DNA of 64,000 nucleotides from Metaphire vulgaris (Eukaryota; Annelida; Clitellata; Crassiclitellata; Megascolecidae), in contig CM030835.1 of NCBI GenBank assembly GCA_018105865.1, forward strand, positions 10,739,416 to 10,803,415. The letters are read 5' to 3'. The position numbers were made by a program, and so were the translations under genes. Of the stretch, positions 8,538-63,423 are shown one piece after another. Position 1 is the first letter of the stretch; each line of letters opens with the position of its first letter. The notes under the pieces were generated by a model. It saw only the letters and a list, made by a program, of their open reading frames with translations, made no database searches and had not been told where the DNA came from.

Positions 8538-8920
8538 CAGTGGCGGCTCTAGGATTTGGCAAGTGGGAGGCCGTTGGGGTGGCAACTTCTAATCATGGGG
8601 GCCAACCATTTGTTGTTTAATGTATGTAGCATTAAGTATAGGGTCCAAACTGGGGGGACACTGGGGGGCATGCATTAAATAGGGGGCACGGGCAGTGGCG
8701 GCTCTAGGACTTGGCAAGTGGGGGGGGGCCGTTGGGGTGGCAACTTCTAATCATGGGGGCCAACCAGTTGTTGTTTAATGTATGTAGCATTAAGTATAGG
8801 GTCCCAACTGGGGGGCCACTGGGGGGGCAGGCTCTCAATAGGGGCACGGTCCCCCCTGGCCCCCCCGGTGGAGCCGCCACTGGGCACGGGCCTCCTGGCT
8901 CCCCGGTGGAGCCGCCACTG
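8538..8920. mobile_element. hAT-type miniature element, CAGTGGCGGCTC family, host of a nested copy
   Basis: The ends are CAGTGGCGGCTCTAGGATTT on the left and GGTGGAGCCGCCACTG on the right. The perfect 8-bp duplication CTGTATCT lies at 8530-8537 and 8921-8928. The element is interrupted by a second member of the same family (8693-8882). It has no coding capacity. The shared interior includes GTGGCAACTTCTAATCATGG and GTTGTTTAATGTATGTAGC. Confidence 0.92.
8693..8882. mobile_element. hAT-type miniature element nested in a copy of its own family
   Basis: This 190-bp element again has CAGTGGCGGCTCTAGGA and GGAGCCGCCACTG ends. It is bounded by a perfect 8-bp duplication GGCACGGG (8685-8692 and 8883-8890) made from host-element sequence. 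It therefore inserted after the outer copy. It lies in the same orientation as its host. Confidence 0.92.
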
Positions 8921-12361: not shown

Positions 12362-12427
12362 TGTATTTAAGTGGTTTATGTAAAATCTCTAGCTAGTTTT
12401 AGAAATTTCGATATTTAAAGAGATGAC

Positions 12428-14977
12428 TTGTATCTACTACAGTGTTATCCAAAGTTTGCTGTCGTTTATCGCCCCGGATCGTCGGTCGTTACTCCACTGT
12501 TTTTTCAAGAACTGATGACCCTTCTCGGTGGCTTAGCGTCGTTATGTGATCCTGTATATATCGTAGGCGATTTTAATGTGCGTTTTGATAGGGACAATGA
12601 TCCTGCTTGTCACCGGTTGCAAGATCTCTTCGTGTCCCACAATTTTGAGCGTTGTGTGACTGGACCAACACATCAGAATGGAGGTGTGCTTGATGTTCTC
12701 GCTTCTAGTCGTACTGTTTCCACTCCCTGTGTAGCAGTTCATGATGTGGGTCTGTCCGATCACCATCTGCTGAGGTGGAATGTCTCGCTCTCCCGACCGT
12801 GCCCTATCTATGCTACCGTTAGTCGACGTGTGTGGGGCAAACTAGACCCTTTGGCCTTTCGTATGGGGTTGCAACTCTCCTCACTCGCGGATGCCACGTC
12901 CTGGTCTGGCCTAGATGCCGAGTCTATGGCTCAGCTCTATGACAGTGAGATTACTCGACTGCTTGATGAGTTTATACCGGTCAAGACCGTAAGCTTTCGA
13001 AAGCGATCGTCCGATCCGTGGTTTGACGACGAATGCCGTACCGCTAAGATGATGCTTCGTAAGGCTGAGCGCCGGGCTCGGCGTGCCTCCCCTGCTGACG
13101 CCGTGTCGTCTACGGCTGAGTGGACCAAATATCGCAGAGCATACCGACGACTGATAAGTCGGAAGAGAGAGGTCTTCTGGTGTCGTAAGGTAGAGCGGGA
13201 GCGTACTTCACCGCGTCGGCTTTGGCAATCGATTGATGCGCTCATGGGGCGTGGGCGCGCGCCTTTACCTGATAGACTCACGGCTGGTGATTTTTCTGCT
13301 TTCTTCAGCAAAAAAGTGTCCGCTGTATTGACGGCTACCTCGGAACATGAGCCCCCTTGTTTTACTTCGGCTCCGCCCGGGTGTTCCTTAGGCGGTTTTC
13401 GCGCTCTTTCTGTGGAAGAAGTAACCGCAGAGCTAGGCGCCTTGCCTGACAAGTGCTGCGCCAGTGATCCTTTTCCGACTCGCCTCCTTCGTGAGTGTTC
13501 CGATATCCTGGCGCCGTTTGTTACCGAGCTCATGAATCGTTCACTACAACTGGGTGAGGTCCCAAAGTCGTTTAAGGCCGCTTTCGTGACACCGCGGATC
13601 AAGAAACCTGGTCTCGATGCCTCTGATGTTGGCTCTTACAGACCGATCTCCAATTTGTCTGTTCTATCGAAGCTGCTCGAGCGCTTCGTCTCTAGGCAGC
13701 TCATGGACCATCTCGCGGTTTCTGGTCTCCTTCCCGAGCTACAGTCTGCCTATCGTGTTTTTCACTCTACTGAAACGGCTGTTCTTAAGATCACTTCCGA
13801 TATACTTCGTGAACTTGATCAGGGAAAGTTTGCCCTCCTCGTCCTTCTCGACCTCACGGCCGCATTTGATACCGTAGACCACTCCATCCTACTGCGTCGT
13901 CTTAACATCTCCTATGGTATCAGTCACGTGGCTTTGAGATGGTTTTCCTCCTATCTTGACCACCGTACGCAATTCGTCCGCTGTCCTCACTCCAGGACCC
14001 TTCCATCTCGGGTGACTTGCGGCGTACCGCAGGGCTCGGTCCTTGGTCCCATCTTATTTACCTTGTACGTGGCCGACCTTATACGTATCATTCTTAAACA
14101 TGGGCTTTATGGACATCTTTACGCGGATGACACTCAGATCTATGGTGGCTGCTGGCCGTCTGAAACGCATCTGCTTCTTGAGCGTCTCACCCGGTGCTTG
14201 GATGAGTTGTCAGCCTGGCTTAAGTCTAATAGGCTCCAGCTTAACGTCTCTAAGTCGGAAGTGCTCTGGCTAGCCACCGAGAGGCAACAGCACCTGTTGC
14301 CGCATGACTGTGTCAAGATCCACGATCTTGAGCTCCACCCGGCTGCCTCAGTGCGTAACTTGGGAATCTACCTTGATAGTGCAGCGACCCTTAAGCTGCA
14401 TGTATCCAAGACTGTCGCCAGCTGTTTCTCTTCACTTCGTTTGATTAGGAGTCTGCGTCGGTCTGTTTCTCAAGCCGTCCTTAAGACATTGGTTGTCGCT
14501 CTGGTACTGACTAGGCTCGACTATGGCAATGCTGTTCTTGCGTGGTCACCTGCCTATTCTTTCGACCGGTTGCAGTCTGTTTTGAACTGTGCCGCTCGTC
14601 TTATCTATCGTTCGGCCCGATGTGATCATGTCACCCCGCTTCTTGTTGATCTTCATTGGCTGTCAGTGCCTGAGCGCATCATGTTCAAGTTATCAACTCT
14701 TGTATATCGCTGCCTTCACGGGATGGGTCCGAATTATCTTGCATCCGAGTTTCGTAGTGTTTCTGACCTCGCGGGCCGCAGACGACTTAGATCGTCCGCG
14801 ACTTCGGTGCTTATGGTTCCAAGAACGCGTCTTGTCACCGTCGGAGATCGTGCCTTCCCTGTGGCTGCTGCGCGTACTTGGAACTCGCTTCCTGCTGACA
14901 TACGGGAGTCATCGTCGCTAGATATTTTCAGGAATCGACTGAAGTCATGGCTTTTTAAGACTAGCTACTTAGTTTAA
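12428..14977 (+). CDS. CR1/L2-type LINE ORF2: partial endonuclease and complete reverse transcriptase
   Basis: This 849-residue open frame encodes the replication protein of a non-LTR retrotransposon, not a host gene. Residues 10-115 are the C-terminal half of an APE-type endonuclease, with VGDFN near 46-50 and SDHHLL near 110. The reverse transcriptase follows, with SYRPISNLS at 403-411, LTAAFDTVDH near 475-485, GVPQGSVLGP near 530-540 and the catalytic YADD at 565-568. The C-terminal region ends with the family's GDRAFPVAAARTWNSLP and FRNRLKSWLF motifs. The missing N-terminal endonuclease half shows that the copy is 5'-truncated. The first residues before FAVVYRP probably derive from the insertion site, so the annotated ATG is not the native start. 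No internal stop or frameshift exists over 2.5 kb, which implies a recent insertion. GC content is higher than in the AT-rich flanks. Confidence 0.93.
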   Translation: MYLLQCYPKFAVVYRPGSSVVTPLFFQELMTLLGGLASLCDPVYIVGDFNVRFDRDNDPACHRLQDLFVSHNFERCVTGPTHQNGGVLDVLASSRTVSTPCVAVHDVGLSDHHLLRWNVSLSRPCPIYATVSRRVWGKLDPLAFRMGLQLSSLADATSWSGLDAESMAQLYDSEITRLLDEFIPVKTVSFRKRSSDPWFDDECRTAKMMLRKAERRARRASPADAVSSTAEWTKYRRAYRRLISRKREVFWCRKVERERTSPRRLWQSIDALMGRGRAPLPDRLTAGDFSAFFSKKVSAVLTATSEHEPPCFTSAPPGCSLGGFRALSVEEVTAELGALPDKCCASDPFPTRLLRECSDILAPFVTELMNRSLQLGEVPKSFKAAFVTPRIKKPGLDASDVGSYRPISNLSVLSKLLERFVSRQLMDHLAVSGLLPELQSAYRVFHSTETAVLKITSDILRELDQGKFALLVLLDLTAAFDTVDHSILLRRLNISYGISHVALRWFSSYLDHRTQFVRCPHSRTLPSRVTCGVPQGSVLGPILFTLYVADLIRIILKHGLYGHLYADDTQIYGGCWPSETHLLLERLTRCLDELSAWLKSNRLQLNVSKSEVLWLATERQQHLLPHDCVKIHDLELHPAASVRNLGIYLDSAATLKLHVSKTVASCFSSLRLIRSLRRSVSQAVLKTLVVALVLTRLDYGNAVLAWSPAYSFDRLQSVLNCAARLIYRSARCDHVTPLLVDLHWLSVPERIMFKLSTLVYRCLHGMGPNYLASEFRSVSDLAGRRRLRSSATSVLMVPRTRLVTVGDRAFPVAAARTWNSLPADIRESSSLDIFRNRLKSWLFKTSYLV

Positions 14978-15359: not shown

Positions 15360-16131
15360 AAAACATTGTTGAATACAATAAGTAATATTTATTCAGGTAT
15401 ACAGTAGTAGAATGTACATTTTTAAGGCTTCCGTCCTAACTTCATAAGTCTTAATAAGCTACTTGAAAATGATATATAGAAATATCTAAACATGATTTAG
15501 GCTTAGTTGATTGTTAAAGAATTGTTTTATGAGTAGAATGTTAGCTTTTAAAGACCCTAGCAATTTTAAATATTTACAAACTATTTATACGGAACCCTTG
15601 CAGTTTCTCGCGGAGCCTCTGAGTTCCGCGGAACACACTTTGGACAACACGGATCTACTGTAAGAAGCTTGTATAGAATGAAATATTATAGACCTTCTAA
15701 GTTCTAGCCTAATAGGCCTACACCAACACTGTAATGGGGATTTAGAATTGCATACGTCATGATACATGTATCAGCATTGGGTAAATGAATGAATTTATTG
15801 CATGACACTTGTTCGCCCTATAGACATCACGACATCGATTTATGGCGTCCAGAATCAGAGTCAAGTGACGTCATATATCACAGGCGGTGGATCAAAGATG
15901 GCTTCCTTGAGCTGTGACGAGATAACAGCAGAGATCAAAAAGAGTTGGTAAATTATCGCGAGAAAGGATGGCGGATGGTCAGAAACTGGCGATAAAATAT
16001 ACACAGAAAATGGCACCGGAGCCTGTAAGATAAAACATCATGGCAAGTTCGTTTCCGATTAGAACGACGCTTTATTTTCGTTTTCGTTGTCGTTGCCAGT
16101 GATAGATCTATATTTAGGATAGATATATATC
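15360..16131. other. Upstream region of the kinase gene
   Basis: No gene is seen. It may contain the promoter and 5' untranslated region of the kinase gene. One TAGGCCTA palindrome lies at about 15712. Confidence 0.4.
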
Positions 16132-17574
16132 ATGATACTATTCGCAATGTCTTTCGTTCTGCGATTGCTTGCCTCTTGCTGGCAGAAGTTTCTGCGGATA
16201 TTTGGCTGCGGACGGCTTCGCATTGACAGACTATCATCCGTCCATTTGGGGTTAGGACTCATTGCGTTCGGTAACCTCTGTCTGATCCAGTACGCTCTCC
16301 ATACCGGATCAGTTCCTATGGGATCCACCTTCTCTTATTCCAGTGGAACACCCGCTGTCAAACAATCTTCGCTCTCCATCCACGTTGAAAACAAACAGAT
16401 CCGAATGGACGAGCAACATTCGGATATCTTATCCAGAAATGGATTGGATGTTCAAGGGTCTGTTGCCAAGGGAAACGGGGGATTCCTTGGCGGGGGCACG
16501 CGCCACTTCCGGTACGGCTGCCCGGACCTCGGAGGTATAGTCTTAAAGCGGAAGTTGGGACACGGCGTGTCGAAACAGGTCTACCTGGGCGTGTCCGGAG
16601 GGGCGGAGAAGGTGGCCGTCAAGATGGTGACCAGGAACCTGGTCGACGTCACGAGCTGTCTCAAGCGAATGGCCGACATGATGACGTCACAGATGCTGAC
16701 GGATGTGGACAGGTGGTCGATCGAGAAGCGGAAATTCCAGTGTTACCTGCTGCCGAACATGAAGCTGATGAAGGAGATCCTGCTGCTGAACCAGCTGGAA
16801 CACCCGAACCTGCTTCGGCTGCTCGGCTACTGCGTCCGCAGCGAGGAGACTGAGTCGACGTCCCTGCTCGAACACGGGGTGGTAGCCGTTTACGAGTACG
16901 GACAGCGCTTCTACACGTTCAGCCTGTCTCGATGGCCGTTTGACGTCCGACTCGGCACCGCCCTGGAGCTGGCCAGCCTCCTGGACTACCTCGACCGTAG
17001 CCCCCTCGGCTCGTTGCGCATCTCAGACTTCAAGGAGGCACATTTTCTGCTGACCGCCGACCGTAGGATCAAACTCACGGACCTCGACGACATGAACAGC
17101 CTAGAACCAGAGTGCCGCGGCGGCGGCGAGAATTATTATTCCAGCAGCATTCCGCCGCAACAGGGAACCGGCGACGCAGCGGCGGCGACGTCGTGCGGCT
17201 ACGGACTACGATGCCTAGGGGGACAGTGTCTCGGGTACAACGCCAAGTACAACATGGACAGGATGAACCGACTGTTCTTTCGCAATCTTCTCGTCGCTCC
17301 GGATTACGAAGAATCGACCGATCCGGATCCATTTCCGGCTTCCGATGGAGGAGGCGGAGGAGGAGGAGGAGAGCCGGAAACAAAGAGGATCGACCGATTG
17401 AATTTCGTCGGAGATAATCGGATTTTCCGACGATTGAAAGGAAATTACGCGGCACAACTCTCCGATCTCCGTCGAAGACTCGATTCCGTCGAATTGTCCG
17501 CAGCGGAACTGATGGACTCGATCCGGCGCATCTCGGATTCCATCCGTCAACTGCATTCACTCGATCACAGTTAA
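16132..17574 (+). CDS. Divergent secretory-pathway protein kinase, PKDCC/VLK-like, single exon
   Basis: The 480-residue frame is intact and intronless. Residues 37-58 form a hydrophobic segment after a short basic N-terminus, as in a type II Golgi/secretory signal anchor. The kinase-like domain runs from about 128 to 390. It has a nucleotide-loop-like LGHGVSKQVYLG at 142-153, the ATP-binding lysine in VAVK at 161-164, a helix-C-like KEILLL at 214-219, then HPNLLRLLGYC at 224-234. The region SPLGSLRISDF at 290-300 supplies the presumed catalytic Asp299, and LTDLDD at 315-320 replaces DFG. After it, a cysteine-bearing segment CGYGLRCLGGQCLGYN leads to NMDRMNRLFFRNLL. The order HPN-LxLxGYC, SPLGS, TDLDD and C-x-G-x-N-x-x-x-N is what I know from PKDCC (vertebrate lonesome kinase), an extracellular tyrosine kinase of secreted proteins. 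Residues 405-413 are a glycine run and 440-476 look helical. The lack of introns could reflect retroposition or ancestral gene structure. DIPK/FAM69 kinases are the main alternative. Confidence 0.8.
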   Translation: MILFAMSFVLRLLASCWQKFLRIFGCGRLRIDRLSSVHLGLGLIAFGNLCLIQYALHTGSVPMGSTFSYSSGTPAVKQSSLSIHVENKQIRMDEQHSDILSRNGLDVQGSVAKGNGGFLGGGTRHFRYGCPDLGGIVLKRKLGHGVSKQVYLGVSGGAEKVAVKMVTRNLVDVTSCLKRMADMMTSQMLTDVDRWSIEKRKFQCYLLPNMKLMKEILLLNQLEHPNLLRLLGYCVRSEETESTSLLEHGVVAVYEYGQRFYTFSLSRWPFDVRLGTALELASLLDYLDRSPLGSLRISDFKEAHFLLTADRRIKLTDLDDMNSLEPECRGGGENYYSSSIPPQQGTGDAAAATSCGYGLRCLGGQCLGYNAKYNMDRMNRLFFRNLLVAPDYEESTDPDPFPASDGGGGGGGGEPETKRIDRLNFVGDNRIFRRLKGNYAAQLSDLRRRLDSVELSAAELMDSIRRISDSIRQLHSLDHS

Positions 17575-20835: not shown

Positions 20836-36148
<15,313 letters not shown>

Positions 36149-36599
36149 AATTTCAACGCCAGTGAGAATCGCGCAACCACTAAACCTAATCACACAACAA
36201 CAACGACCATAAAAATTAATGATCGATAATTGGACAACAACGACGAAGCCATTGCTGTGTTGATACTTCGCCACATCACTTTAACAGAACACAGACGAAA
36301 TATCATCACGCGAGGAGATGAGGAGAACGATATTCGCCAGATGGCGACTAATTCCGACATCGGCTTCTTGAAATCGTGCGTTGCCTGCTATCACGAAATG
36401 AGTTTCTTGTGTTTTTAGGAAGTTTTAGCTCTTTTATACATATATTCAGCACTATTTTGATCTTTTCGATACATTGAAATTCGTTTCTAGAGTTGTTTAC
36501 ATGAGTGTCGCCAAGCGCATGGCTTGATATCTGTGGTTCTTTCAACAGGAAGAGGGCGGTTGTTGGGTGGTGTTTGGCTGGTGGCTGGTTGGCGGGAAA
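36149..36599. promoter_or_regulatory. Presumed bidirectional promoter between ERLEC1 and the kinesin-5-like gene
   Basis: The two start codons point away from each other and are 451 bp apart. No other gene or transposon lies between them. No TATA box is clearly placed. The role is inferred from the layout only. Confidence 0.5.
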
Positions 36600-39500
36600 A
36601 TGGCGACGCATATTGGCGAAGGAACGAGTGAAGGCGCCGAGGCACAGGAGCCAGGGAAAAAAGAGGAGAATCAGAATATTCAGGCCGTCGTTCCTTGCCG
36701 GTCAGTGTTTCTCGTTATTTTGTTTGTTTTGCTGAGGAAAGATTGATAGATTGGTATCAGTGCTTACTTTGAGGAGGGGTGGCGGGCTTATTACCTCTGG
36801 TTCAGTGGTTCTCAGAACCCTTTGCTGCAAGGCCGACATTTGAAATGCAGACATTTTTGCGGGTGTTATATGGCAGGACTCTATAGCCTCAAAACTAATT
36901 TCTTCAGAATCTCATACCAATAATATCTGTACTCTTGTTCCATAATTGCTAAGTTGTAATGTTGTTTGGTGACACGAGGTGTTAATGCCCTGGTTTACGT
37001 TTATGTTTTAGCCCAAGTGTCGCAGCTATGACCAAAGACCTTCAGTCGTATGATGAGCAGTACTCTCGAACTATCTCAGATAGTCACGAAGATATTGGTA
37101 TATGCCTATTTGGCTTATTTTCTAAAGTCCTGTTTCTAAACTAATTTTACACAGAGTAGGGCCTACTACTCTTGGATTTTGAGACGGGAAACTCTTAGTT
37201 CCTATTTTGTTATTATAATAAAACAGCGGAAAATGTAATCCATTATAGTAGGCTTGTATATTTCTTGTCTCGTGCCAAAAAATCCAGTCTGTCTAATACA
37301 TTCGGTGCTCGGACATATAATTATTATATACATCTCAAATATATGGCTATTCGCTGGACCTGGGACATAAATATATGTTCCAGGCCCAGCCCTATATGCT
37401 ATGGGCTGTAACATAGTGAATGGCCAGCAGTATGGCATAAATCGTGGCCGGACAAAATGTCACCGGACAAAATGTAAATGTCCGCGGACATTTTGTCCCT
37501 GTGACATTTTGTCCCCGTGACATTTTCTCCCCGTGACATTTTGTCCGTGACATTTTGCCTGTGACATTTTGTCCTAGCACCGCATGAATGTATGTTGAGG
37601 TAACATGTGGCAAGTGTTTGAGACTTTCAACGCGGACCACTAATCTTGACAGAGGGAGAGAAGGATGACCCAGGGCAGTGCTAGTTGCTGTCTACTCTAA
37701 CCCTAATCCTGACTCTAACCCTAGCCCTAGATTTTCTCATTTGTCATGCTGTTAGTATGTTACTGTCTTCTGTTTATAGTTTTTAAAGCAAAACTACCTA
37801 TGAAACAGGGCCTGTTTTAATGTGCAGTGATACACAAAATGTGCAGTGATAAAATGAAAATGTGCAATGGCAAAATGCAATTTTCTGTGCTTTTTGTGGT
37901 GATAAATTTTCTGGACGGCCTTTTTTGCTTGTTTTTTGCACGGATGTCCACAAATTTTCTGAGTTTAGTGCAGTGATAACTTTTTCTTAAAGCAGGCCCT
38001 GCTATGAAAGCGTTTCTCAGCAGAAGAAGCAGTAGCGGGCAGAGGGGGGCGGTGGCCCCAGGCGCATACCAGAGGGGGGCGTAAAAATTGACTCGACAAT
38101 TTTTTTTGCTTGTCAACACTTTTTTACTACATTTTACTACTGCTGCCGTACCATCTAAAATTTCGCTTTTATACTCAAATATTAAGATCTACACAAACAA
38201 AATTTTAACATAATAGGATCTGTCTATAGATTTATGATTGAGAGCTGACCACAAAGGATTCTTTATTTGTGTAGGTTTGCTGTTGAAATCAAGCTCTGCT
38301 AAGGTGAGAGACTTGTTGGACAGCATGCCACATGTGAGTGACGTTATAAACAAGGGTCTGAACGATATGCATCTTGCTCTTGAGCATCATGTTCATGGCA
38401 TCAATGAGGGGCTTGACAAGTTCATTGCTGAAAGCAAAGAAGTTCGTGTAAGTGTTAGTCAAAATGGCAGAGTTGTTCTTTTTATTGGATATAGATATGT
38501 TCAGAAATTTAAAGTATTTGCTCAGACATGTGTTGTCAATATACTCAGTACTCAGAATACTTGGGTTGGAGTGCAGTCAATGTTGTTTAAATGAAAGTTC
38601 TGCATAAAATGGTCACTTTCGTCTTTGTTGCCTATGTTGAACTTTAGATTTTTATGGCATTGTTTTAGGATTCTGAAGTTATGAGAATCGTTGACTTTAA
38701 TCAGCGAACTGTTGCTGAGCAGATGAGCAGCGTTGTTGGTGCTCTGAATGCCGTGGCTGCTGACTTGGAAGGCCTCAGAGTTGCTCTTAATGACCAGGTG
38801 AGATGCTTTCAGGTGGCCTATGTTAGAGCAATATCTGTTGAATATAAGGACTGACCAGCTGAAGCTAAATGGCAATTTTACTTTAATTGAAATCAAGAAG
38901 TTTTGCATCAAGTGTTGCTAATACTATTATGTTCAGCAAAATGCAGGCTATTTCAAACTAAATGACATTTATGTGAGTTGTGTGCATGCTAATAACTACC
39001 CACATGCATTGCCACAGTTGATATGGTTTAGTTTATGAAAAGCATAAACTTGATGGTCTATGTGGATAAATGCAGTAGTGAAATCATTATAAGACTTGTA
39101 TTACATCATCATCATCATTAGCGGCAATAGATAGACACAAAATATTTCCAAGAAGTTCGATTTTCTGTTATTCGTCTTCCTTCTATGATTGAAATTCCTT
39201 TCTTATATTTAATGTGCTGCAAAGTCAGCTTTTCCCCTCTTATTATTTTTAATGGCTTGACTGCTCTAAGCACTGTAGGATTTGAGACTATAAAGATGTT
39301 TGTATGTGATTAGGAAGTTGTCATTCTCATTTGAATTCTCTATGGGATTACGTTACTTGTAATGGAAGATTTGTAATTTATTCTTTTCTTTTGCTTTGAT
39401 ATTCATAAACATGGATTTACTTTTTCAAATTAATCTGTTTTATGTATGATCTTAATGTGCAAATTGCTGCAATTGCTTTTCTATTCACTCTTGCTGAAAA

Positions 39501-41268
39501 ACCTTTATGTAGGGGACTGTTCAGCAACGCATGGTTACAGATTTTGTGAAAAACCAGTTGATTCAACTTTCCACTTACCAGGAAATGATGGAGTCTTATT
39601 GTATTCAGCAAACCACGGCCATAGAAAGTCTAATTAAGAATGAACAGGTATTTAATAAAGAGTACTCAAGGCTGATCAAGGTTATGTGCTGTTACTAATA
39701 ATTAGATGTAGTAAGTAAAGCTGTGCATAATTTATGCCTTTGGATTGGCCGATAATTAACTTAATTTCAGAAACGCGTGTAATTTATTTTTTTCTTTCTA
39801 GTTTTCTTTTCATCATTTGGGATCAGATTGTGGATAAGTCTTGTTGATTTTGCATGTTCACTTGGTCCAGGGTTGTTTCCAGGAGTTCACAGATTTGATT
39901 AACAGAACTGATCAGAAAATAAGAGAAGCGGTAAGGGGGGAAAGATTGTCAGATTTTTCTCAGGTACAACATGTATGTCATCAGTTTTGTTTTAAAAAAT
40001 TTAATATTTAGTTCCTTTACAGTATTCTTTGTTTTAAGATTTGGTTGAAATGTAATAGTCTTTGTTTAAAACATGGTGTTTTTAATTTGTAAACTACGGG
40101 GACCGCGGCCCCACCCCCCAGTTGTTTTCTTGGCCCGCAGTAATTATGGCGGTCCGCCTTTCATATAATGGCCCCCTAGAGGTTATTCCGATTCATGACC
40201 GTAGTAACTTTTGCGCATTGCCATCATACCTGACTGTCAGCACTTTTCATCCGATATTAGAAAATTTATTCTACTATCATTGTGGCTGATTTGTCAGTAG
40301 TCGGGCAGAATAAACTAAAATCGGGAAGTACCAAAATTAGTTTTCATCTGGAATTAATGAAGGTTTCATTGCTCCCCCACCTAGTAATTTTTCCTTAAAA
40401 ACATCTTGGTTTAAAATGGTGTGTGCATGTGCTTAGCCTGCTTGGCATTGTGAGATTAGGTTCCATAGAACAATGAAGATAGGCAGCATTGAACATGGCT
40501 TAATGCTTGGACAGGTCCGAGATGGGTGTCCAGTGGTCAAACCAACCATCATTGTCTCAGTTTTCAGTATAGGACTTTGCCTTTATTATTTGCAGCTTTA
40601 TTAGCTAAGGACACATTCATGGTTAATGTGTGTTGTAACTAGCATATCTGTGTTCCAGACATCTGATGAATTTCTAAAGATTCAAAACGATACAGAAGAC
40701 TTCCAGAATGGCGCTTCTGGGTAAGCATTGTTCACTTTTTCAATATGCAGCATTCTTTCAATTTTTCATATAATAGTGGCTTTTGCAGACTCAGAACTGT
40801 ATCGTACATCTGCACTTTTTATACTAAATTAACATTTTCTGTGTTTGTTTAATTGCATTGTCATCAAAAGAGTTTTAAAATGGCCTCTTTACCGATGCTT
40901 CACTTTGTGCGACTGGTGCTAGTACCGGTATTAGTTTTCTGGACGAAATGACTCTGAAATCAGCTTGAAGTTGATAAGTATCAGTTTTATTGAGTGATAT
41001 GGTTATGCTTTAGAATTCTTATTTTTTATGCCACTTGGCAGGCACATGCAGCTAACCCTGAATTTTTAAAAATTTCAGTGCCATTGAGCAATTGGCTGAA
41101 GTTTCACAGAATGGGTGTCATGAACTTGTGGAACAGTCTCAGGCATGTGTTGGTAAAAATGAACAAATGATTGGGAATGTTGTCACTTCAATAGAAACTG
41201 GTCATGATACTGCACATGTGCATAAAACAAAAGAAAGCTCAGAAAAATTCTGTAAAGATTCAGAAATG
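36600..41268 (+). CDS. Kinesin-5 (KIF11/Eg5)-like protein without a visible motor domain; partial at 3' end
   Basis: Eight exons join in phase: 36600-36700, 37012-37097, 38275-38447, 38669-38797, 39513-39647, 39871-39930, 40659-40720, 41079-41268, giving about 312 residues. All borders are GT-AG. Exon 1 starts MATHIGEG and contains GKKEENQNIQAVVPCRP across the first junction. This matches the segment just before the motor of kinesin-5 proteins (KKEE..NIQVVVRCRP as I recall). In kinesin-5 about 350 motor residues follow. Here exon 2 continues with PSVAAMTKDLQSYDEQYSRT and the rest is helical stalk/tail-like sequence (LLDSMPHVSDVINKGLNDMH; VAEQMSSVVGALNAVAADLE), ending SSEKFCKDSEM, which resembles a tail motif of KIF11. 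Arg of the VRCRP motif is Pro. Kinesin-5 normally cross-links and slides spindle microtubules; without a motor this protein could not do so. Options are a headless paralogue, alternative exons outside the window, or an assembly deletion. The last exon is not identified; read-through of exon 8 would stop at 41307. Confidence 0.65.
37441..37577. repeat. Minisatellite, unit about GTGACATTTTGTCC
   Basis: Two units read GGACAAAATGTC (37450 and 37467) and then at least six read in the opposite sense as GACATTTTGTCC with small spacer changes. The array is therefore an inverted-repeat arrangement, possibly the remains of an element with subterminal repeats. It lies in the kinesin-like gene's second intron. 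Confidence 0.75.
37806..38001. mobile_element. hAT-type miniature element, CAGGGCCTGTTTTAA ends
   Basis: The ends CAGGGCCTGTTTTAATG and CTTAAAGCAGGCCCTG are inverted repeats. The perfect 8-bp duplication CTATGAAA lies at 37798-37805 and 38002-38009. The interior contains repeated TGTGCAGTGATA words. It lies in intron 2 of the kinesin-like gene. Confidence 0.92.
39103..39330 (-). mobile_element. 3' end fragment of the (GAT)n-tailed LINE, minus strand
   Basis: Read on the minus strand the sequence ends TTTGTGTCTATCTATTGCCG, CTAATGATGATGATG. This parallels TTTGTGTCTAGCAATTGTCA and the (GAT)n tail of the copy at 31282-32295. It lies in an intron of the kinesin-like gene. Confidence 0.6.
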
Positions 41269-41559
41269 GTAATTATTTTTAAAAGTTTTAAAATAAATTT
41301 AGCTTGAATTGATCAAATTTGCTACCCAGGTCAGTTTTTACTGCTATACATGTGGGTTCTTAGAAGTGCCTGAAAAAGGCAGCATTTACAATCATCTCTA
41401 ATTAATGTAGTTTAGGCATTTCTGTTAAGTGCAGCAATGTCAAGTCTTCTTTGGAGTACCGGGTAATGCTACCCACCAGTGCGTTAGCTATATGCTTCTA
41501 ATAGAAATGAAAAGGAGGTAATCTGGTATTCTGTCCTGACATTGAGGACCCTCATGAAT

Positions 41560-41790
41560 GTCTTAGAAATCACTTATGACCCACAAGAATGGAAACTATT
41601 TTAGACTCTCTGAAACTGAGCCTAGCCTTCAGACAATGGAAATACGTCTTCCATCTATTCTAGTAGCGCACACTTTCCACATGAAAGAGATGTACCATAA
41701 CTTGAAGCAGCTATTAAATACCACAGAATATAACAAGTACAGCTGGCACCTCTATACTTTGCGATACCTATATGAAAAAGTCTAAACAGC
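41560..41790 (+). pseudogene. Fragment of a transposon-encoded protein
   Basis: The frame gives LPSILVAHTFHMKEMYHNLK and then LLNTTEYNKYSWHL. I recognise this pattern as a segment common in an unnamed transposon protein of cnidarians and other invertebrates, where it is followed by GDLK and WDSR motifs that are absent here. It is a short isolated relic. Confidence 0.5.
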
Positions 41791-42127
41791 TGTACGAGAG
41801 ACGGGCAGAGAAATTTGAGACAGATTTTATTTTTATATAGGCATTTTATTGCTATTGCCATACATTAGTGTAATACACAGTAATTGCAGATTACCAAAAA
41901 AGATCACATAAAATTTAATGAGAAATGACTAATTTCATTTCAGTGACTTGACTTGTTGCAGTCAATGCTTTGATGCTGTACATTAACTTGCACCAACCTC
42001 AACCATGAACTCTTCTAGAACTGTGTTGTTTGGAGGACTTTGATGAATTTTTTGAAGTTGTGAAAATTGATATTTGTTCAGTTTTGATTATACATGAAGA
42101 ATTTGTTGAAATGCATATTGTTATACT

Positions 42128-46301: not shown

Positions 46302-48234
46302 TGCACTTCTATAGCACCATGCTTCATCTAAAAATGGATCCCACAGATGAAAATTTGAAGGCCTCAATGCGGCTTTAAACCCACGTGCAACAGGATTACG
46401 TGAATTTAGAACATCAAACAGGTGATCAATGAGTTTCAAAAATTTTACTGTAGGCTCAGATCCAGAAAACTGTGGTAAATGTAGATATGTGGCACAGAAC
46501 TCAATAGCTGATGATGTACTGGCACTCAACGTCTGTGCTGCTAAATTTACTTTCATCTTCTGTGTGTGAAAGTTAATGTGAGCTTTAGTTAATTTATTAG
46601 CCAGATGCATACCCTCATTTTGCTGCACCTGATGTAGGGCAACAACATACTCCCATTTAATTTTGTTACCATCAGCATCGACAAGTATTCCGCATTCAGC
46701 GAGAGTGTTTCAGTAGCTTCAACATATGGCAAACATCAAACACCACATGAACTTTCACACAAGCATTACTGGGGTGCACAAAAATGCCTGAAGATTCAAT
46801 GGATCTAAACCCGCACCCAACTCATTCATCATTTTGAAATGACAGTGGGGTCCATCACATGTCAAAGAAACAATTTTAACACCAATGTCATACAATTTTG
46901 ACAAACATTGCTTAACTAGATTAGCACGATCGGAGCCAGACAATCCTTTCACAAAGAAAATAACCTACTGGAATTTTCCAGTTTTCACACAAAAGATACT
47001 ACCATAAAAACTAGCACTTCAGTTGCAACAGGAGTTGAATCATCACAAATTCCACTGCCTAAATCAACACAACCACGAAACTTACTTCCATTCCACTCAA
47101 CATGCTGACGGTTTCAATCATTAATGAACATAAGAGTGGTTTGGTGTTGGCTGAAGCATGTTCAGCTCGTGCCTTCAATGCTGAAAGGGCTTCCTGTGTA
47201 AATCCAGGCTCACCATTAACACTTTGGTACCAGCGTCTAATAGCACTGAGACTTGGTAAAGCAAGATTGAAATGTTTGCGAACATAATTATAAGCTTTCG
47301 TGGAATAAAACTGGAGCGTTAGTGCAAATGCTCTCAATTCACTAGGATAAGATTTGCGTGTAACGTTTTTACCTGTTTGTTGCACAATTCGCTCCATTAA
47401 CTGCTTAGAAACACCAGAAAAAGTTTTCTCCAACATTTCAACACACTGCTCATTTACAAGATGCTGCTTTTGCAGATTTTCAACAATGATTTGCAGAGAA
47501 TTGACTCGTTTCCTCAAACGGGATGCTCTCTGTCGTTCCAGTTTCAATTTCTTTTCATTGCAGCACATCTGTCGTGGAAAGGTAGTCAACTTTCTTTTGA
47601 GTTGACGTGGACTCTCAATGGTGTAGTAGCAGTGGTGGCGACAACAGTTTCTACTTCAGATTTTGCCAGTCCACTTGGCTCTGGTTTGACTGTCTGCTCA
47701 TTCTGTGCATCTGATGGTACAACAGCTGTACGAATTACAGGCAGTTGTCTGGAATTCATTACCTGATCACAAGCAACAATATGTAATCAAATTGACTTTG
47801 CATATTAATCATTAAAAACTGATTATGGATCATTTCCTATTAAGATACAGTAAATCATATTGACACGTGACCACTGTCATTGTTCGACAGATTGTCATAA
47901 TACCGATATGGCCTACGTGTGTTAGAATTTCTTATTTTAAATGTGACGTTTACTTTTACACTATGTAAAAATGTCACTCAGGTACTGTAATTCACTACTA
48001 TTACTTTGTCACAAAACAGTAATGAATAGTGAAATTGTTATCAAACCTTTCTCAAATGTTTAGGAAACTTGAACAAAGTTGGAACTGCATTTTCTCTGAG
48101 TCTTGTTGTCTGGCCCGCTGATCAAAGCAGTTCTCAGTAAAGTGATCAGAACACAGACATGACCAAGTATTAGGAGTGAAATCGTCACGTCTCATGTTGT
48201 AAACCCACTGCATTGTCAAACATGAGTTCGACAA
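46299..48234 (-). pseudogene. P-element/THAP9-like transposase, broken
   Basis: On the minus strand, fragments lie in the order expected of a P-type transposase. 48234-48052 gives the second half of a THAP zinc finger (NMRRDDFTPNTWSCLCSDHF). 47589-47059 gives a coiled-coil linker and YPSELRAFALTLQFYSTKAY, then LSAIRRWYQSVNGEPGFT. Past a frameshift at about 47095-47110 comes HVEWNGSKFRGCVDLGSG. 46952-46755 gives the catalytic-type segment VSLTCDGPHCHFKMM. After a further frameshift comes FDVCHMLKL near 46730, then 46628-46299 gives NEGMHLANKLTKAHINFH and FDVLNSRNPVARGFK. At least three frameshifts or stops break it and the first half of the THAP finger is missing. An intact enzyme would cut and paste the element, leaving 8-bp duplications. 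The likely ends are at 44924 and 48489. Confidence 0.85.
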
Positions 48235-52022: not shown

Positions 52023-52423
52023 CTAATCGTCCGACTGTCCGAGGGCTGACGACACCGGAAACGGAAACGAAAATCTTCGGCGGCGCTGGTCTGCGTTCAC
52101 GCCCCGCTCGTTCGACGGGAACACAGACGACGAAGCTCTTGTTCCCGGGTCTTGGTGAACGTGAGCTGCGTGGACGACGGTGCTCTGATCCACAAAATAC
52201 CCGGATGTGGAGAAGGAGAAGGAGGAGGAGAGGGATCTGCTGCTGCTGCTGCTGCTGGTGGTGGTGGTGGTTGGCACAGCGAGTGGGGAAATTGATGAGG
52301 CAGCGGGGGAGTCGTACAGAGGTAGGAAATGCGTAGAATGCGACTGAACACAGCACCTGTTCGATTCGTGGCCATCTTCCTCCATAATCGCCAAATTACC
52401 TGACAGAGTAGTTCCCTCCTCTC

Positions 52424-52463
<40 letters not shown>

Positions 52464-53550
52464 ATTGGTGGTTCCATCGCATTCGCTAGGTGGTGCCACT
52501 GCTCCGTGGGCGGCGCCGCAGTCGCCAGGTGGCGGCACCTGCGCTCGCAACGAGCAATTAATGGGAGCTGTGATGACCGACAGGAAGTGGTCCAACGAAG
52601 CGACAGACGACGCCGATGACGTCATCATCTCAGCCGATGACGTCATTCGCAGACGACGTTCGGTGTCTGCGTACGACCGACGACTAAAGGCGGGAACTCG
52701 GTCGAAGTCCGAAGGTCCCCCGGTCACTTCGGAGTCCCTCGATAGCGGCCCCCAATGACCTACGGTCGCCGATTGTCGGTGCAGAGGCGGGTCAAGGTCA
52801 AGTGAATGTCGAATCTTGCCCTCCTTCTCCTCCTCGGGCCCTAGTGGGAACGGGTGGGAGGCGACGACGGTCACCGGCGCCTTGTCTCGATCGCCGAAGG
52901 CGTCCGTGCTGGCGGCGGAGGGCGTGGGACCGACCCCCGACCGGAAGAAGTCGAATCTGAGGAGGGGTGCGGTCTTCTTGAACGCCGTTAGACTGGTTTC
53001 CCGCTTCCCGTCTTCTTCGCCGTCTTCGTCTTCCATGTCCTCGAGCAGTCTGTCTCGCGTCTCGCAGACGACGACGCACGAGAAGACGATGACGAAAGAC
53101 CCGCAGCTCATCAACACCGGCCCAAGATATACCATGCTCCTGAGGTAATTCGATTCTCCCTCGCCCCCACCCCCACCCCCACCATCCACTCCCTCAACTC
53201 CTCCCCCACCCCCTTTCGTTCCATCATCATCATCGTCGTCCTCCGTCGTCCCTCGGGCGTCGTCCTTGACGAGCGAAGGGCGCAGGGGACCGGGGTAGTG
53301 GGACGTGCCGTTGCCGTGACGACCGTTTCTCGGGGACGACGGCGACGACGGCAGCGGTATCCGGTCGGCATGGTAACCGACAACGCAGAAGCAGACGCCG
53401 ACGGCGATGACGACGCATCCGGCGCAGGTGGCCGTCAACGCCTGCCAGACAAAGGGAACGAAGCAGCGAAACCCCCTCCTCCTCCTCCGCCGCCGCTCCC
53501 TCTGCGGGACGAGGACCGAGCGACCGGCAGGTGGTCCACCCGGATGCGAG

Positions 53551-53581
<31 letters not shown>

Positions 53582-53618
53582 GGTTGACGTTCCGCAAGAT
53601 CCGACCGGCGTTGAACAT
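52023..53618 (-). CDS. TMEM200-like two-transmembrane protein, single long exon
   Basis: The 531-residue frame has a glycine run at 14-22 and an arginine-rich stretch (RERRRRRRR) at 40-48 directly before the first membrane helix (about 55-82, FVWQALTATCAGCVVIAVGV). A loop at 83-160 holds a possible glycosylation site (NGTS at 103) and acidic and glycine runs. A second helix at about 162-185 (YLGPVLMSCGSFVIVFSCVV) is followed by CETRDRLLEDM. The spacing of the two helices and the LGP...G.F...E.RD pattern at helix 2 match what I know of the TMEM200 family (TMEM200A/B/C), whose molecular role is poorly known. The rest is a low-complexity, Ser-rich cytoplasmic tail with a run of 14 Asn encoded by a (GTT)n array at 52430-52462. 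No intron is needed in this part; an upstream exon cannot be excluded. The coding sequence is GC-rich against its flanks. Confidence 0.65.
52430..52462. repeat. (GTT)n microsatellite inside the TMEM200-like coding region
   Basis: It encodes a poly-Asn run on the minus strand and is likely to vary in length between individuals. Confidence 0.9.
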
Positions 53619-54025: not shown

Positions 54026-54520
54026 AAGTAAGTGAGTAAAATCTCGTGGATTTATATAGCGCTTTGGAAGTATAGTACGACAGTAGTTGTTTATTCTTAG
54101 GAGCTTGGCGTTTCTTAATAGTTATGGGAAAGGAGAATGATCAAAATATCCAAAGGCAGTCATGCTAAGTTTCCTCCGTAGCTCCATGGCTATGGAGAAA
54201 ACGATTTTTTTTGAAAAAGGAACGAATTAACAATTAAGCCTGGATCTGAAGACATGAGGAGATAATGCAGGAATTATGGGAAATGAGAATTCCGATTTCA
54301 TTATTTGACAGCGTCTAAGGCTGCGGAGGGAAGCTGGGATCGAGCTCCAATGTTTAGGTGCGGCGAATGAAAAGGAACGGTTGCAGATTTTCAGGGATGA
54401 CTGATTCAGCGGACGTGAAAAAGTGAGATGAGATGACGATGGTTTGGGTCGAGGAGGCTGAGGGGTTAATAGTGTTCTAAGGTGGTAGCAGGTTTTAAGG
54501 ACTGAACTGAGCTACAGTGA

Positions 54521-57179: not shown

Positions 57180-57295
57180 CAGTGGCGCGCAGAGAGTGGT
57201 GGGCACCTGGGGCCAAGCCGATTAAAAATTTGACGAGCAAAAAAGTCGCCGAGTCAATTCTGGCGCCCCCATCTTGTCGGCGCCCGGGACCACTG
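57180..57295. mobile_element. Probable hAT-type miniature element, ends diverged
   Basis: It starts CAGTGGCGCGCAGAGAGTGG and ends GGCGCCCGGGACCACTG. The interior holds TTGACGAGCAAAAAAGTCGC. The ends pair poorly and the flanks do not match, so the limits are tentative. Confidence 0.45.
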
Positions 57296-61718: not shown

Positions 61719-62156
61719 GTCACTTTCAATAATTGTAAAATGCATTTCTAGTAAGTAGTAGTAACACAACAACGCCGCGATGAGAAAAACAATGGAAAAC
61801 GCAAACTGTGAATACGGGACGCAGCCTGTCGAAAATGCTACACTTCACGATCAGCACAGGGCACAGAGGGCGGACATTTTTGGACGACAAATTAATTAAA
61901 GACGAAATCTTTTTATGATTTTGAAACGGAGCATCAGAATTCACAATGCCTCCGAAAGGACCAGCGTTTAACAGGGTGGATTTGGGTAAGCCTGGTGGGA
62001 AAAATTGCTTATTTACTTCCTACCCAACCCTAATTTATTATCTTCAGTCTACGAGATGCTAAAACGTCCTGTTATTCGGCGTGTTAAGACGAGTAAAAGG
62101 CAAAATCTCAAGAAAAGTTGGAAAGGCGCTTAAAGAAACGAATTAATTGTGAGGTC
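61719..62156. other. Intergenic, no gene seen
   Basis: No feature recognised. Confidence 0.4.
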
Positions 62157-63234: not shown

Positions 63235-63423
63235 CAGTGGCGGCTCTAGGATTTGGCAAGTGGGAGGCCGTTGGGGTGGCAACTTCTAATCATGGGGGCC
63301 AACCATTTGTTGTTTAATGTGTGTAGCATTAGGTATAGGGTCCCAACAGGGAGGGGGTCCACTGAGGGGGCAGGCACTCAATAGGGGCACGGGCTCCCCT
63401 GCCCCCCGGTGGAGCCGCCACTG
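63235..63423. mobile_element. hAT-type miniature element, CAGTGGCGGCTC family, in a CA repeat
   Basis: The ends CAGTGGCGGCTCTAGGATT and GTGGAGCCGCCACTG. The flanks ACACACAC and ATACACAC match at 7 of 8, but lie in a CA microsatellite. It lies only 117 bp from the copy at 62954, in opposite orientation. Confidence 0.88.

Follow-up and report, generated by a model that had tools for sequence, protein, structure and literature searches.

The question raised by a stretch of 64,000 nucleotides from the annelid Metaphire vulgaris (GenBank assembly GCA_018105865.1, contig CM030835.1, positions 10,739,416 to 10,803,415 of the forward strand) is whether a kinesin-5 gene can occur in nature without its motor. 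Kinesin-5 (KIF11/Eg5, and KLP61F in Drosophila) builds bipolar spindles by means of a tetramer that cross-links and slides microtubules (PMC3978770). The whole stretch is hereafter called the window, and all coordinates refer to it; the gene under study occupies positions 36600-41268 of the plus strand. The presence in the window of an eight-exon gene without detectable motor exons is confirmed. The explanation tentatively preferred, with a confidence falling slightly short of evenly balanced, is that a kinesin-5 gene was duplicated, suffered an internal deletion and now encodes a motorless rod protein of the BASS type, which putatively titrates or caps the bipolar motor. In the open-licence literature, considered at the level of titles and abstracts, no natural kinesin-5 gene lacking the motor was found, and the kinesin-5 rod alone appears as a laboratory construct in PMC3978770. 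If this explanation is true, a natural rod-only gene would offer a ready test of whether a partner lacking the motor regulates kinesin-5 by assembling together with it, and would illustrate a route leading from a motor gene to a scaffold gene.

A coding gene with a kinesin-5 first exon

Once spliced, the eight exons of 101, 86, 173, 129, 135, 93, 62 and 190 nt yield 969 nt, corresponding to 323 codons which start with the ATG at 36600 and contain no stop, and GT/AG dinucleotides occur at every internal border of the chain, the introns of which span 0.2-1.2 kb. Read in its two remaining forward frames, the joined sequence contains 20 and 32 stops. The periodicity of base use along the codon positions of the joined exons reaches 81.3, compared to a maximum of 25.7 in 2000 shuffles and of 15.8 in 80 overlapping, equally long stretches from the rest of the window, transposase pieces included. 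The eight exons are real coding exons, and the chain of compatible phases without stops proposed in the initial annotation is thus reproduced, together with its first intron of 311 bp and a junction reading ...NIQAVVPC-R-PS. If the donor of exon 8 is not used, the stretch 41269-41307 (+) would add 12 codons and a TGA at 41305-41307, with an AATAAA at 41292, as a possible 3' end of the gene.

Exon 1 (36600-36700, +) consists of the ATG and a kinesin-5 N-terminus, MATHIGEGTSEGAEAQEPGKKEENQNIQAVVPC(R), whose terminal Arg codon is cut by the donor in phase 2. Its segment KKEENQNIQAVVPCRP aligned to KEEKGKNIQVVVRCRP of human KIF11 scores 55, the best of 1000 shuffles reaching 49, and shows two changes with respect to the kinesin-5 segment NIQVVVRCRP; a PDB sequence search with exon 1 alone gave no match. 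According to the description of the splice variant KIF11 c.77+1G>A in PMC6565546, human exon 1 ends after the CG of Arg26, within VRC-R-P. The exon 1 of the window stops after the CG of the matching Arg, residue and phase being identical, and it therefore corresponds to the kinesin-5 first exon: both the NIQxVVxCRP segment and an identically placed and phased intron are shared with kinesin-5, and sequence and intron position together give firm support to the descent of exon 1 from kinesin-5.

The first Arg of the RxRP motif, at strand beta-1 of kinesins, is replaced by Pro in exon 1, leaving a PxRP in place of the intact motif. RxRP has an established role in the kinesin motor, and a change to Pro is expected to impair it. 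At the corresponding column of the 83 sequences forming our KIF11 profile, Arg occurs in 76, a gap in three, Glu, Tyr or Ser in four, and Pro in none. The Arg-to-Pro change in VRCRP singled out by the initial annotation is present and would fit a loss of motor constraint. The sequences of the profile are mammalian wherever named. A protein search with KIF11 gave at least 250 matches, and among the 120 listed all those that carry an organism name are mammals, so that it yielded no relative from the annelid's own phylum.

Intron 1 (36701-37011, +; 311 bp) stands in the place of some 510 residues that comprise the motor, the neck and the motor-proximal coil of kinesin-5, and it is not an obvious gap because the window does not contain a single N. 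Residues ~27-540 of human KIF11 have no detectable counterpart on either strand of the window. Human KIF11 compared to the window by tblastn retrieved exon 1 at E 4.4 and, otherwise, a best motor-region match at E 6.9; the KIF11 profile found nothing above 3.8 bits in the six frames of the window, a scan of the window for kinesin motor motifs gave isolated short matches only, and neither the motor domain (PF00225) nor its P-loop and switch motifs gave a significant match in the six frames of the 64 kb. The absence of a motor domain at the locus, as initially annotated, is accordingly borne out for both strands of the window. The exons had also been described as stalk and tail, a description which holds for the central rod and fails for the tail: no BimC box could be detected anywhere in the 64 kb, where the best likeness (E 3.2) lies upstream and on the minus strand. 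Exon 8 is followed by 22.7 kb of window sequence, and an exon search 3' of 41268 gave no candidate at the first thresholds and six at lower ones, none of which resembles the kinesin-5 tail. A very distant exon or a strong divergence of the BimC box are possible.

Intron positions and sequence of exons 2-8

The exons lying downstream of exon 1 were compared to human KIF11 only, using exon boundaries stated in published papers. Amplicon length differences give 173 nt for human exon 14 and 126 nt for exon 15 (PMC11395040); exon 14 ends at c.1875 (PMC11395040 among other sources), exons 16 and 18 at c.2160 and c.2547 (PMC4464120), and exon 17 at c.2267 (PMC13115744). It follows that human exons 14-18 measure 173, 126, 159, 107 and 280 nt and start in phases 1, 0, 0, 0 and 2, to be compared to the start phases 1, 0, 0, 0, 0 and 2 of exons 3-8 of the window. 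Exon 3 (38275-38447, +; 173 nt, phases 1 to 0) has exactly the length and the phases of human exon 14, and an intron-split Gly codon, that of G568 in the human protein, opens both chains. Exon 4 (38669-38797, +; 129 nt, phases 0 to 0) agrees with human exon 15 to within one codon. Within the same splice chain, exons 5 (39513-39647, +; 135 nt, phases 0 to 0), 6 (39871-39963, +; 93 nt, phases 0 to 0) and 7 (40659-40720, +; 62 nt, phases 0 to 2) together fit human exons 16-17, and exon 8 (41079-41268, +; 190 nt, phases 2 to 0) possesses the phases of human exon 18 (280 nt). Exons 3-8 thus keep the human phase series 1, 0, 0, 0, 2, 0, with one extra intron. Finally, exon 2 (37012-37097, +; 86 nt, phases 2 to 1) may be taken, from its register, for the 3' portion of human exon 13, close to where the BASS domain begins.

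In 400,000 random seven-exon chains with lengths drawn from a pool that includes both genes, one exon of exact length and phase occurred with a frequency of 0.079, an exact exon with a neighbour within 3 nt with a frequency of 0.00095, and the phase chain with one extra intron with a frequency of 0.0172, the latter two combined falling to 0.000023 (2.3e-5). The true chance is less extreme than this last value because the criteria were chosen post hoc, human exons 14-18 alone were considered and the pool includes both genes. The kinesin-5 origin of exons 2-8 is supported by exon lengths and phases, and not by sequence significance. The attribution of all exons to kinesin-5 in the initial annotation is accordingly supported in part, firmly for exon 1 and less so for exons 2-8.

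The expected resemblance between kinesin-5 rods is itself small. Over the same rod region, human and Drosophila proteins align with a score of 98 (1 of 300 shuffles as good) and those of Xenopus and Drosophila with a score of 87 (3 of 300), compared to 365 for human and Xenopus rods. Across phyla, this region of the kinesin-5 rod has diverged almost past recognition. The failure of rod searches thus says little, since the rod can barely be linked even between human and Drosophila. The eight-exon model aligns to human KIF11 with a score of 78 (1 of 500 shuffles as good; reversed sequence, 60), and its rod alone scores 61, 62 and 50 with human, Xenopus and Drosophila, the shuffle means being 42, 45 and 50. 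In the six frames of the window, the segment of exon 8 ranks first of all segments with the KIF11 profile, at a non-significant 3.8 bits. A PDB search with the model retrieved matches at E 0.5-0.6 only (best, 0.51), and Rfam gave none at gathering scores.

A series of results weighs against a kinesin-5 origin of the whole gene, beginning with the sequence searches, in which neither kinesin-5 nor any other protein significantly matched exons 2-8. With the spliced protein, the best Pfam match (E 0.005) is under the cut-off and not a kinesin, the PF00225 motor being absent, NCBIfam gave no match, and two length windows of the protein database, with 1313 and 3151 candidates, gave nothing at E<=10. 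The comparison to the KIF11 profile by hhalign scored 21.2 (Prob 0.6), surpassed by three of 15 shuffles, the reversed sequence scoring 16.5. With BLOSUM45, 8 of 300 shuffles equalled the human alignment; the Xenopus score of 73 was equalled by 7 of 500 shuffles and exceeded by the reversed sequence (74), and the Drosophila score of 59 by 136 of 500 shuffles, the reversed sequence reaching 86. The start of exon 2 has no counterpart among the human exons, exon 13 extending at least 208 nt further upstream, and some splice sites are weak on a rough consensus score, especially the exon 5 acceptor and the exon 2 donor. In the register fixed by the intron-split Gly, the gapless score of exon 3 ranks 68th among 613 offsets, 7 of its 58 residues being shared with the human protein, and the anchored hydropathy correlates with that of Xenopus, in the register initially adopted, at only 0.03 (196 of 454 offsets as good or better). 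The best free human alignment, with its score of 78, lies some 80-90 residues away from this register, and the likeness of FCKDSE in exon 8 to the human FCADSD conflicts with the intron mapping. A sensitive profile search, whose failure to link the exons to kinesin-5 was named beforehand in the initial annotation as a refutation, was run and gave no link; it is not decisive because the profile is mammalian only and human and Drosophila rods barely pass mutually.

Two other properties of the exons count in favour of a kinesin-5 rod. With the split Gly as anchor, the hydropathy of exons 2-3 shows a correlation of 0.24 with the KIF11 set, a value equalled or surpassed at 58 of 970 offsets, of 0.24 with Drosophila (22 of 452), and of 0.32 with Xenopus one residue away, in the register preferred by the Xenopus control; Drosophila and the KIF11 set correlate at 0.27 as a control. 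The agreement is weak, yet of the size found between true relatives. The amphipathic helix periodicity of the model is strong (z 7.9) and close to that of the human (8.9) and Xenopus (9.1) rods, compared to 3.6 for the Drosophila rod and 2.0 for the human motor.

The BASS construct of KLP61F covers residues 635-835, of which 640-796 are seen in the structure (PMC3978770), and PDB chains 4pxt and 7s5u match this stretch. By combining these numbers with the KLP61F sequence and the anchored register, the start of exon 2 would fall at about residue 642, so that the retained part probably opens close to the beginning of BASS, the domain through which the tetramer forms.

Origin of the gene and competing explanations

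The preferred explanation assumes that a kinesin-5 gene was duplicated and lost the exons for the motor, the neck and the motor-proximal coil, and that exon 1 was then spliced in frame onto the exons of the central rod, the first of which lies close to the beginning of BASS. The product of this apparently intact coding gene would be a helical rod of ~323-335 residues and, if expressed, a motorless assembly piece and not a motor. If it assembles as BASS does, the rod would bundle in antiparallel fashion, either on its own or together with full-length kinesin-5, and the resulting motorless bundles or mixed tetramers would titrate or cap the bipolar motor and lower bipolar sliding. That the gene is retained and expressed for the assembly rod alone behind the old N-terminal exon, either as a natural dominant regulator or as a structural filament protein, is a possible but doubtful extension of this explanation.

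The most serious competitor, itself unlikely, is a fault of assembly or haplotype: the locus would be the ordinary kinesin-5 gene of the species, and the assembler would have dropped or misplaced its motor exons and possibly those of its tail. An exon structure otherwise similar to that of KIF11, in a repeat-rich region, is what such a fault would leave, but no run of N marks a gap, the new join of exons 1 and 2 stays in phase (a chance of about 1 in 3), the Arg-to-Pro change in the motor motif of exon 1 is unexpected for a sole working copy, and the tail box is also not found on the 3' side, despite introns of 0.2-1.2 kb. A simple drop-out is disfavoured because RxRP is broken and both ends are apparently lost.

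A similarly low probability is assigned to a decaying partial duplicate without function, which has lost both of its ends and owes its intact frame only to its youth. The broken RxRP and the failure to find motor and tail in the window agree with such a duplicate, as does the lack of any relative at E<=10 in the protein database; a young copy would be nearest to the species' own kinesin-5. Against it stand the 969 nt without stop, the GT/AG at all internal borders and the full codon periodicity. The intact reading frame disfavours a long decay and not a young dead copy.

That exons 2-8 form an unrelated coiled-coil gene, which either captured exon 1 or lies nested in the first intron of a kinesin-5 gene that begins with exon 1 and has its motor exons outside the 64 kb, accords with the lack of a significant sequence link and with an ATG within exon 2 that could start a separate protein, but is quite improbable because the exon structure matches human KIF11 in the lengths and phases of exons 14-18, a motor built with the PxRP of exon 1 is expected to be impaired, and exons 1 and 2 join in phase.

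With respect to known systems, the gene shares with kinesin-5 the first exon, the lengths and phases of human exons 14-18 and the helical rod, and differs from it by the undetected motor, neck, motor-proximal coil and BimC box, the broken RxRP and a rod sequence devoid of significant similarity. Yeast Vik1 and Cik1 are non-motor relatives of kinesins, Vik1 keeping a motor-like fold; the locus resembles them in that its product would be related to kinesins yet have no motor activity, and differs from them in that no motor sequence was found. Another parallel is the BASS region of KLP61F, near the start of which the retained part would begin in the register adopted here (289 residues versus the ~200 of the construct given in PMC3978770), but BASS is a laboratory construct, and the conservation of its tetramer contacts at the locus is putative.

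Other features of the window

Two further likenesses to kinesin-5 were rejected. The best tblastn match to human KIF11 (E 0.45), at 61849-61896 (DQHRAQRADIFGRQIN), resembles residues 524-539 and was considered as a second copy, but a stop follows directly and nothing exon-like surrounds it. The short reading MGKENDQNIQRQSC at 54127-54171 (+), GKENDQNIQ-like and similar to part of exon 1, is attributed to chance, no DNA match to exon 1 being found at E<=1e-3 when 36000-42000 was compared to the window.

Repeats occur around and within the gene. TTAGGG-like repeats in both orientations are located at 35702-35817, ~0.8 kb upstream of the gene. Intron 2 contains a 16-bp tandem array at 37479-37574, with inverted matches within 37449-37574, and a dispersed repeat at 38052-38116, an inverted copy of which lies at 57230-57293 (78% identity over 65 bp). 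A 158-bp repeat unit occurs at 8538-8849, and the start of the unit recurs, by eye, near 63236.

Mobile elements are represented by a long open reading frame (ORF) at 12419-14974 (+), matching RVT_1 at 2.9e-31 with endonuclease-type matches under the cut-off, which is probably the remnant of a non-LTR retrotransposon, and by pieces of a P-element-type transposase at 46302-46709 and 47062-47655 (-; TNP-like GBD, 1.4e-41; Tnp_P_element, 6.3e-25). An ORF of 483 residues at 16123-17571 (+) shows weak matches of the protein-kinase/FAM69 type, under the curated cut-offs, and a GC-rich ORF of 531 residues at 52026-53618 (-), with one hydrophobic segment and a Pfam match below the cut-off only, may represent the opening exon of a gene for a membrane protein.

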